DNA from: Acidobacteriota bacterium | GTDB lineage: Bacteria; Acidobacteriota; Thermoanaerobaculia; Gp7-AA8; JAHWKK01 | Assembly (NCBI GenBank): GCA_019347945.1 | Contig: JAHWKK010000028.1 | Span: 1-36,612 of the forward strand | Direction: 5' to 3' | DNA length: 36,612 nucleotides | Shown here: positions 32,958 through 35,956 of the stretch, piece after piece | Numbering within the stretch: position 1 is the stretch's first letter | How the letters are laid out: each line of letters begins with the position of its first letter | The notes under the pieces: generated by a model | Database searches by the model: none | Told to the model about the DNA's origin: nothing | Seen by the model: the letters and a program-made list of their open reading frames with translations, nothing else | Program-made: the position numbers and the translations under genes

Positions 32958-32974
32958 GCCGCGGGTTCGTGGCC

Positions 32975-33679
32975 ATGTCGTCTGATCTCGGTGAATTCGA
33001 ATCGCTGCTGGAGTACGTTTTCCAGGACCGCTCCCTTCTCGTACGGGCGCTCACCCACCGTTCCCACGCGCACGAATCGAAGGAAGATCGCGATAATGAG
33101 ACCTACGAGTTCCTGGGAGACTCGGTGCTGGGATTTGTGGTGGGCGACGAGCTTTTTCACCGATTTCCCACCGTGGACGAGGGGACGCTGTCCAAGATGA
33201 AGGCATTCCTCGTGAGCGCGCGAAGCCTTTCGAAAAAGGCCGAGGCGATCCGTATGGGAGAGTTCGTCCGGCTGGGAATCGGTGAGGAGCGGTCGGGCGG
33301 CAGGGTCAAGAAGTCGCTTCTCGCCAATCTTTACGAGGCGGTCGTGGCTGCAATCTATCTCGATGGGGGAATCGACGCGGCGCGGAAGTTCATCCTCCGT
33401 ACGTTTGGTCCCCATCTGGACCAGGTGACCGAGAGCGACCTGCTGTTCCACGACTACAAGACGGCGCTGCAGGAGGCTGCTCAGAGCCGTGGGTGGGAAC
33501 TTCCGAGTTACGAAGTGCTCTCGGAGCTCGGTCCGGATCATTCGAAGACCTTCGTCGTTGCGGTCGACGTCGGAGAGATGAAGGCCGAAGGGCGTGCATC
33601 CTCGAAGAAGGAGGCGCAGCAGCGAGCCGCCCGGGTCGCGCTTGCTCAGCTCCAAGCGTCGAACGGAGAGCAGCGCTGA
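32975..33679 (+). CDS. rnc: ribonuclease III
   Basis: RNase III cleaves double-stranded RNA in rRNA and mRNA maturation. The 234-residue protein has the catalytic domain with the signature ETYEFLGDSVLGFVVGD (metal-binding Glu and Asp), the second acidic site in NLYEAVVAAIYLDGG, and a C-terminal dsRNA-binding domain (~residues 160-230: DYKTALQEAAQ, GRASSKKEAQQRAA). Length is typical. ATG 32975 is preferred over an in-frame GTG two codons earlier. Its last bases overlap the proposed CTG start of the EnvC-like gene. Confidence 0.96.
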   Translation: MSSDLGEFESLLEYVFQDRSLLVRALTHRSHAHESKEDRDNETYEFLGDSVLGFVVGDELFHRFPTVDEGTLSKMKAFLVSARSLSKKAEAIRMGEFVRLGIGEERSGGRVKKSLLANLYEAVVAAIYLDGGIDAARKFILRTFGPHLDQVTESDLLFHDYKTALQEAAQSRGWELPSYEVLSELGPDHSKTFVVAVDVGEMKAEGRASSKKEAQQRAARVALAQLQASNGEQR

Positions 33680-34785
33680 GACGCGCCGGATACCTGCTGC
33701 TCGTCGCGTTGGCGGCCGTCGGGATGGCCGGGCAGGACGACGACCGCAACGCTCTCGAGCGATTGCGGGAGGAGATCAGCGCGCTCGACCGGAATCTGCA
33801 GCAACTGCGCGGCCGGGCGTCCACTGAGCGGGACCGGCTCGGTGATCTCGAGGATGAGATCGCCGTGCAGGCCCGTCAGCTCGAGGCAGCAGAAAGGGCG
33901 ATCGAGGAGATCGAGCGTGACCGGCTCCGGGGGGAGCAACGGCTCGCCGAGCTGACGGCGAGACGGGAGTCACAGCGAGCGGCCCTGGAACGGCGGATGG
34001 TCGCCCTCTACAAGATGGGAGATCTGAGCTATTTGCGGCTTCTCCTCTCCGGGGATCTCGACCCCGCAGCGCTCGGAATGCTGAACTATCTCGTCAAACG
34101 GGATGCACGAATGATCGAGGAGTATCGCGCGACCAGCCAGGCGCTCGCGCAGGAGCGCGCGATGATCGCGGCACGGCAGGTAGAAGCTGTCGAAGTCGCC
34201 CAGATCCTGGAGGGGAAAAAAGCGGACCTCGAACGGTCGCGCTCCGAGCAGCGTCGCCTGATCGCCGAGCTCGAATTCCGCGAGCGCACCGGGCAACAAC
34301 GACTCGATGAGCTCGAGGAGAAAGCAGAACGTCTTCAGCGGCTGCTCGTCGTATTGACGGAGGAAGGTTCAGCGGCCTCTGCGGGGATCGGGCAGTTCCG
34401 CGGCGCTCTCGGGTGGCCGGTGGCTGGCGAAGTGATCGAGCGGTTCGGCAGGCAACGAAGCCGCAAATTTGCGACTTTCACCGTGAATAACGGGATCAGA
34501 ATCGCTTCAGCGCCGGGCTCGGAGGTAAGGCCGGTTTTCCAAGGAACAGTGATCTACTCACAATGGTTGAAGGGGTATGGCAACCTGATCATCGTCGACC
34601 ATGGCGACCGCATCTTCACGCTTTACGGGAACCTGCGGAACAGTCTGGTGGAACGAGGAGAGAGGGTGTCGCCCGCCGACCCGATCGGCACTGTCGAGAC
34701 CGACGGCGCAGGAGACGGCGGGGCGCTTTACTTCGAAGTGAGAGTTGACAACGAGCCGGTCGATCCACTGGCCTGGCTTAGGTGA
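33676..34785 (+). CDS. EnvC-like degenerate LytM/M23 factor (probable amidase activator)
   Basis: The 369-residue protein has a signal peptide (RRAGYLLLVALAAVGMAG), a long periplasmic coiled coil (~residues 25-240) and a C-terminal LytM/M23 domain (~255-369). All zinc-binding positions of active M23 peptidases are replaced: His-x-Gly-x-Asp reads N271-N-G-I-R275, the second His motif reads LYGN319, and the HFEV motif reads Y352FEV. It should not cut peptidoglycan; like E. coli EnvC it more likely activates cell-wall amidases at division. No ATG or GTG fits: a CTG at 33676, overlapping the rnc stop as CTGA with GGAG upstream, gives a full signal peptide, while TTG 33709 or ATG 33724 would truncate it. 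The S41-like gene follows by 13 bases. Confidence 0.8.
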   Translation: MRRAGYLLLVALAAVGMAGQDDDRNALERLREEISALDRNLQQLRGRASTERDRLGDLEDEIAVQARQLEAAERAIEEIERDRLRGEQRLAELTARRESQRAALERRMVALYKMGDLSYLRLLLSGDLDPAALGMLNYLVKRDARMIEEYRATSQALAQERAMIAARQVEAVEVAQILEGKKADLERSRSEQRRLIAELEFRERTGQQRLDELEEKAERLQRLLVVLTEEGSAASAGIGQFRGALGWPVAGEVIERFGRQRSRKFATFTVNNGIRIASAPGSEVRPVFQGTVIYSQWLKGYGNLIIVDHGDRIFTLYGNLRNSLVERGERVSPADPIGTVETDGAGDGGALYFEVRVDNEPVDPLAWLR

Positions 34786-34798
34786 GGTGAAAAGACAG

Positions 34799-35956
34799 AT
34801 GCAACGAGCGCGATTGCCATTCATTCTGCTGTCCCTGGCGCTGATGTCGACCATCATCGTCGGAGCTCTGTTCGGACAGGCGGCCGACAAAGACAATCTG
34901 TACAGAAACCTGAGCCTCTTCACGGAGGTGATCGAGCTGGTCGACAACAGCTATGTGGACGAGGTCGATCAGGAAAGATTGATCGAAGGGGCATTCGCCG
35001 GCGTCACAGAAGCGATCGACGAGTACAGTTTCTATGTGCCCCCCGCTTCGATGGCCGATTACGAACGTGTGCGCGTGCTGGATGACCCGGGCGTCGGCCT
35101 GATCATCTCCAAGAGGCTGGGCTATGCGTACGTCATCGCAACAATTGCCGGATCTCCTGCCGAGCGCGAGGGGATCGTCGCGGGCGATTTCATCGAGCGA
35201 ATCAATGGGAATCTGACCACGGACATGCCGGTATGGAAGATCGAGGCGGCGCTTCGTTTCTTCGAGTCCGATCGGGTCGAGATGACGATCGTGCGCGCCG
35301 GGATGGCGGAAAGGGAGCGGTTCACCTTCGAACAGGAGGATTACGAGATCGATGGCCCGCGCCTCAGCTGGGACGAGGGAGACGCGATCCTCGTCGTGCC
35401 GCAGTTCTCCGCGGGAACCGCCGATCTGGTTGCCGCGATCCTGGAGGAGGTCGGGAAGAGGAAGACGGATCGACTGCTGATCGATCTGCGAGGAAACGCC
35501 TGGGGTGAAGCGGAGGAAGCGATCAGGACCGCCGACCTCTTCATGGAGGAGGGCGTGATCACGTCGACCGAAGGCCGGCGGATCGAGCCGCAAGAGTGGA
35601 ACGCTGAGAAAGGAAGCTCGTGGAACGGCAGCACCGTGGTACTCGTCGATACGTCCACGGCCGGGCCGGCAGAAGTGTTCGCAGCCGCGCTCTCACGGAA
35701 CGGGGTCGCACGTCTGGTGGGAGTCCCGACGTATGGGAAGATGCCGGTTCGGCAGTTCGTGCGCCTCGGAAGCGGCGGTGGCCTCGAAATTACGGTCGGC
35801 CACTATCAGACCCCCGACGGCATGTCGATCGTCGAGGGGGGCGTACGTCCCGACATCGTCATCAATCGTGCGGCGCTCGCGCTCAGCGACGAGGACGAGG
35901 ACCTGATCCTCGATCGCGGACTCGCGATTCTCAGAAGTGAACCTGAAGGAGCCTGA
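34799..35956 (+). CDS. S41 / C-terminal-processing-protease homologue lacking the catalytic serine
   Basis: The 385-residue protein has an N-terminal signal anchor (LPFILLSLALMSTIIVGALF), the CTP helical region (LVDNSYVDEVDQERLIEGA), a PDZ domain (~residues 80-175, PGVGLIISKRLGYAYV) and an S41 core. At the nucleophile site, where active enzymes read S-A-S-A-S-E, this protein reads T287-A-G289-P-A-E, so Gly289 replaces the Ser. The general-base Lys is kept (Lys314 in TYGKMPV), 25 residues later as in E. coli Prc (Ser452/Lys477), confirming the alignment. It is probably proteolytically inactive, perhaps a substrate-binding or adaptor protein; Ser286 or Thr287 substituting cannot be excluded. 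ATG 34799 is preferred; a GTG at 34787 is possible. Confidence 0.8.
   Translation: MQRARLPFILLSLALMSTIIVGALFGQAADKDNLYRNLSLFTEVIELVDNSYVDEVDQERLIEGAFAGVTEAIDEYSFYVPPASMADYERVRVLDDPGVGLIISKRLGYAYVIATIAGSPAEREGIVAGDFIERINGNLTTDMPVWKIEAALRFFESDRVEMTIVRAGMAERERFTFEQEDYEIDGPRLSWDEGDAILVVPQFSAGTADLVAAILEEVGKRKTDRLLIDLRGNAWGEAEEAIRTADLFMEEGVITSTEGRRIEPQEWNAEKGSSWNGSTVVLVDTSTAGPAEVFAAALSRNGVARLVGVPTYGKMPVRQFVRLGSGGGLEITVGHYQTPDGMSIVEGGVRPDIVINRAALALSDEDEDLILDRGLAILRSEPEGA

Follow-up and report, generated by a model that had tools for sequence, protein, structure and literature searches.

A CtpA-like pseudoprotease usually encoded next to envC is conserved across the Acidobacteriota and may act in cell-wall remodelling

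The window, which is the whole 36,612-nt stretch of Acidobacteriota DNA analysed here, encodes near its end a CtpA-type S41 pseudoprotease (34799 to 35956, + strand; 385 aa from ATG). Our survey shows that this dead CtpA paralogue is a conserved factor throughout the phylum and is not the same protein as the canonical CtpA that these genomes also encode. CtpA and Prc proteases are known as regulators of the cell wall through the degradation of hydrolases. The loss of the cutting residues over about 50 families, while the gene neighbourhood was kept, points to a non-proteolytic job of this protein family that is maintained by selection. Our leading proposal, in which we place about even confidence, is that the pseudoprotease regulates by binding cell-wall-remodelling enzymes or their activators and not by degrading them. 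We found no description of a bacterial CtpA pseudoprotease in the open-licence papers that were searched.

The protein consists, from the N to the C terminus, of a membrane anchor, CtpB_N-like helices, a PDZ domain, and an S41 core. Residues are numbered from the ATG at 34799, and an upstream TTG at 34745 is a possible alternative start. The hydrophobic N-terminal segment (34811 to 34873, + strand) is predicted from the sequence to be a membrane anchor or signal and forms a helix (residues 5-25) in a low-confidence model, and the PDZ domain (35105 to 35305, + strand) is matched by Pfam PDZ_6, PDZ, and PDZ_2. Pfam Peptidase_S41 scores 114.7 bits, and CtpB_N-like and PDZ_6 are above their cut-offs; the score against the prc model TIGR00225 is 175.7 bits, under the cut-off of 218.6. 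The PDB matches are CtpA and CtpB, and the best Foldseek match of a weak fold model (AlphaFold, six sequences, pLDDT 60) is Pseudomonas aeruginosa CtpA (PaCtpA; E 2e-23). The window protein is a member of the S41/C-terminal processing peptidase fold family.

We compared the active site with that of PaCtpA, whose catalytic triad is S302-K327-Q331 (PMC8764530). The alignment to the solved structure of PaCtpA covers residues 56-378 of the 403-aa frame reading and places the residues TAGPAE over the catalytic Ser stretch. Gly289 (codon GGG, 35663 to 35665, + strand) occupies the nucleophile position of Ser302. Lys314 (AAG, 35738 to 35740, + strand), 25 residues downstream, retains the general base and corresponds to Lys327. 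Four residues past the Lys, where an active S41A peptidase is expected to have Gln (Gln331 in PaCtpA), the window protein has Arg318 (CGG, 35750 to 35752, + strand). The frame is open, two of the three triad residues are gone (Ser to Gly and Gln to Arg), one more than the first-pass annotation had noted, and the Lys alone remains. Judged by these residues, the window protein is predicted to be unable to cleave peptides. A strain-specific sequencing error behind Gly289 was rejected: it takes two substitutions to get from any Ser codon to GGG, which one miscalled base does not explain, and Gly is the norm across the phylum. The alignment and the Pfam matches bear out the first-pass annotation in its description of Gly289 at the nucleophile, Lys314, and the PDZ domain. 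Its reading of the protein as a catalytically dead CTP homologue linked to envC also holds, in that the protein is a conserved pseudoprotease by sequence and the link is real.

Active-site states across the phylum were read from the columns of a MAFFT alignment of 118 readable proteins from 42 families; two rows of family f10 were excluded because the fetched gene is the canonical CtpA. The nucleophile column holds Gly in 84 proteins and Ser in 15. Lys is present in its column in 15 proteins, and the rest have Leu, Arg, Met, His, and others, giving 17 residue types including Lys. Among the 101 class or EnvC-linked proteins (40 families) from outside the window's order, four have Ser and one has Lys, and none has the Ser-Lys dyad. 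In a second set, drawn largely from families in which EnvC is not linked (10 further families), 28 of 28 proteins have Gly and none has Lys. No Ser-Lys dyad is thus present in 129 proteins of 50 families outside the window's order, with Gly as the usual replacement. The frame is intact in 50 families. The dN/dS values of close pairs are 0.08-0.21 in 10 of 14 and 0.34-0.49 in the other four (one of the 14 is an S/K/Q pair), and these mostly low values indicate purifying selection on the dead S41 genes. Conservation is among the highest in the N-terminal helix region, where Y52 is invariant and V53, G64, A65, and G68 are nearly so. At eight loci of family f5, the dead nucleophile helix and the GxxT.G motif are separated by a low-complexity insertion that reaches about 50 residues at most.

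Most of the 61 related genomes covered by the first search have both the short S41 gene and a longer canonical CtpA. The canonical CtpA of the window's own genome (contig C5, 586-aa frame) also belongs to the S41/CTP family; unlike the window protein, it has an intact triad and a longer C-terminus, and it falls in a separate clade. In this genome and 11 others of the order, the canonical protein reads SASASE...GKGLVQ (12/12 intact). As a control, we read EnvC-linked CtpA proteins from another phylum, that of a 'Deltaproteobacteria' MAG; all 10 readable cases have S/K/Q, which agrees with the earlier statement that an envC-linked CtpA is normally catalytically intact. Trees were built with the catalytic columns removed. 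In a quick tree, the dead-paralogue proteins, including those of family f2, form one clade (112 rows, SH-aLRT 99) that includes neither the canonical CtpA nor the active, EnvC-linked CtpA of the control phylum.

One family of the window's order, the sister family f2, has a version of the protein that, as judged from its residues, appears either to have kept or to have regained the full catalytic triad. S/K/Q is present in 10 of the 16 readable f2 members, and triad losses are found in G003, G005, G008, G014, G017, and G018; owing to f2, the dyad is not lost in all members of the clade. The first-pass annotation had regarded an intact Ser in close relatives as a sign of a strain-specific error. 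The outcome is mixed: such a Ser does exist, together with the Lys, in these 10 proteins, but the 50 other families have no dyad. The annotation had also proposed to check whether the Ser-to-Gly change is fixed in the clade and goes with this envC type. Gly is usual and envC lies upstream in most loci of the phylum, but f2 has intact members and genomes without a detectable EnvC keep the dead form. In the tree, the window protein branches off first within its order, followed by G003 and G017 (G/R/Q), G014 (S/R/Q), and a mostly S/K/Q group.

This branching could mean that a phylum-conserved pseudoprotease regained Ser-Lys-Gln in f2 and that the window protein, with Lys and no Ser, sits beside the transition, a scenario that we consider rather unlikely. 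In a two-state model on the larger tree, regain beats loss-only (dyad lnL -18.06 vs -25.31), and loss-only needs 13 losses without regain; the smaller tree favours regain weakly. Both fits take rates to be constant and rely on a quick tree. However, the codons count against regain. In f2, every Ser codon is TCN, the type also found in the order's canonical CtpA, and not AGY, which is one step from Gly and which the control phylum uses in its EnvC-linked CtpA. The f2 sister pair G008 and G005 has Ala (GCC) and Gly (GGC), codons that plausibly mark a loss route along a Ser-Ala-Gly path. An alternative tree in which the order branches outside every other member is not rejected (p-AU 0.09). Gene conversion from the canonical CtpA was also considered as the source of the f2 triad and was rejected, as no local rise in similarity is seen (297-345: 0.36 for f2 and 0.36 for f5). 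The dead window protein and the intact f2 orthologues in one order provide a natural experiment on binding versus cutting.

The genes at the window end are tightly arranged on the + strand in the order rnc, EnvC-like, S41, and DinB. The rnc gene (RNase III by Pfam; 32969 to 33679) is an upstream neighbour conserved in the order (10 loci of f1 and f2). The DinB-family gene (Pfam PF05163; 35937 to 36398), which shares 20 bases with the 3' end of the S41 gene, is outside the conserved pair. The EnvC-like gene (33676 to 34785, + strand) encodes a coiled coil and a degenerate LytM/M23 domain without zinc ligands (34483 to 34767, + strand; Pfam PF01551, Peptidase_M23 83.7 bits). Its frame is open, and its start is uncertain, since the CTG at 33676 overlaps the rnc stop. 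The protein matches EnvC in the PDB and NCBIfam EnvC PRK11637. Like it, E. coli EnvC, which activates amidases with FtsEX (PMC7668044, PMC12505981), has a coiled coil and a LytM domain without zinc ligands; a difference is that the window protein reaches 136 bits, short of the NCBIfam equivalog cut-off of 270. Numbered from 33676, N271, R275, N319, and Y352 are present at the ligand columns as the first-pass annotation described them. The ligands are indeed absent, but their loss is no special feature, because the same ligands are absent from E. coli EnvC and the full set is found in none of about 130 EnvC sequences. The idea of an unusual EnvC-like pseudoenzyme is thereby ruled out, a zinc-less LytM domain being ordinary for EnvC. 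In several EnvC proteins of the phylum (for example at loci L107, L149, and L136), three of the zinc-ligand positions are kept (H, D or E, H) and the last His is missing. The window's own genome encodes FtsX (FtsX_ECD, 60.2 bits) and two Amidase_3 proteins, which makes a standard FtsEX-EnvC-amidase axis plausible.

The envC gene lies directly upstream of the S41 gene in every fetched locus that covers this stretch in families f1, f2, f5-f7, and f9-f13. It also directly precedes a short S41 gene in 71 loci, fetched mostly from across the phylum, and about 21 EnvC loci have no such neighbour. The dead protein is kept away from envC in families f8 and f33; the separation from envC was observed at six f8 loci. 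The Gly-type protein is also kept in seven of seven genomes for which the EnvC search gave no match. EnvC linkage is therefore widespread, yet it is not essential, because genomes without a detectable EnvC keep the dead protein. As an obligate partnership with EnvC, the complex controlling septal amidases that was suggested earlier is not supported, given these seven genomes.

Families without linked EnvC show other cell-wall neighbours. MltG (YceG) or a PBP transglycosylase is encoded within 1.5 kb in 14 of 27 such loci; RuvX is nearby in other loci without linked EnvC, and it adjoins MltG where both were seen. At these loci (families f20, f31, f21, f26, f45, and f37), the dead CtpA gene adjoins RuvX/MltG, divergently where checked, or directly precedes a PBP transglycosylase gene. 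The 1.5-kb flanks contain no cell-wall neighbour in some families, such as the Chloracidobacterium-like f40. We place the function in cell-wall remodelling because two different kinds of cell-wall neighbour, envC and MltG or PBP, occur in different classes. This role is inferred from gene context, and proximity to cell-wall genes is no proof of interaction. The S41 pseudoprotease would be a CtpA paralogue that keeps the fold, the PDZ domain, and the dimerisation helices without cutting. It is probably anchored in the inner membrane and faces the periplasm, where its PDZ domain and a blocked substrate tunnel may hold cell-wall-remodelling enzymes or their activators, with regulation presumably exerted through binding instead of degradation. 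EnvC, the septal amidase activator, would be the likeliest partner where the genes are linked, and MltG or PBPs are candidate partners where EnvC is missing.

Other explanations of the conserved dead protein were weighed against this binding role. It is possible, though on balance we doubt it, that the dead protein serves the canonical, active CtpA as a regulatory subunit, joining it via the N-terminal dimerisation helices to tune activity or substrate choice, in the manner of dead paralogues in other mixed complexes. Such a subunit would work with or without EnvC in the genome. The strong conservation of the helix region suits it. So does the occurrence of both proteins together: nearly every genome examined has a canonical CtpA in addition to the dead paralogue, and the canonical copy is intact in each of the 12 inspected at the residue level. 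There is also a precedent in trypanosomatid deoxyhypusine synthase, which is activated by a dead paralogue (PMC3663545). However, the dead and canonical genes are linked in no fetched locus, whereas envC is linked, and the dead clade is only about 13-18% identical to canonical CtpA in the N-terminal region, leaving a shared dimer interface uncertain. We think it improbable that the protein acts as a periplasmic binding protein or chaperone outside cell-wall remodelling and that its neighbourhood reflects ancestral operon order only. Its retention in genomes without a detectable EnvC and at loci without a visible cell-wall neighbour is consistent with such a role, but the two kinds of cell-wall neighbour, envC in some classes and MltG or PBP in others, argue against it.

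Residual proteolysis through Ser286, Thr287, or Lys314 alone is very improbable. The Lys is retained and a Ser and a Thr precede the Gly, but intact CtpAs also have Ser or Thr two residues before the nucleophile, and PaCtpA S302A, in which that Ser is still present, is protease-dead (PMC8764530). The Lys is gone in nearly all relatives, and the Gln is replaced by Arg in the window protein. The great diversity at the Lys site would be expected once catalysis is unneeded, and could also suggest a decaying protease gene left over without function. This neutral reading has hardly any probability left: it is largely refuted by the selection result, and the intact frames and the conservation of structural motifs and neighbours also speak against it.

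The binding role that we prefer can be set beside known systems. In P. aeruginosa, envC and ctpA share an operon with PA5135, and cell-wall endopeptidases are under the control of LbcA-CtpA (PMC12569750). The window resembles this system in the envC-ctpA order, the CtpB_N helices, the PDZ domain, the S41 core, the best structural match, and the cell-wall context. The difference is that PaCtpA, with Ser302-Lys327-Gln331, degrades cell-wall hydrolases with LbcA, whereas the window protein has Gly/Lys/Arg. The E. coli PDZ protease Prc with its adaptor NlpI is of the CTP family and controls cell-wall enzymes (PMC5686067); it differs from the window protein in being an active protease of another architecture. 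The fold can also serve without catalysis. IRBP, a non-peptidase S41 homologue, is a vertebrate retinoid binder with an S41-like fold and no link to the cell wall. The window's own genome has a third S41 gene (1099-aa frame; contig C8, 79363-83852), which lies about 4 kb from ftsX.
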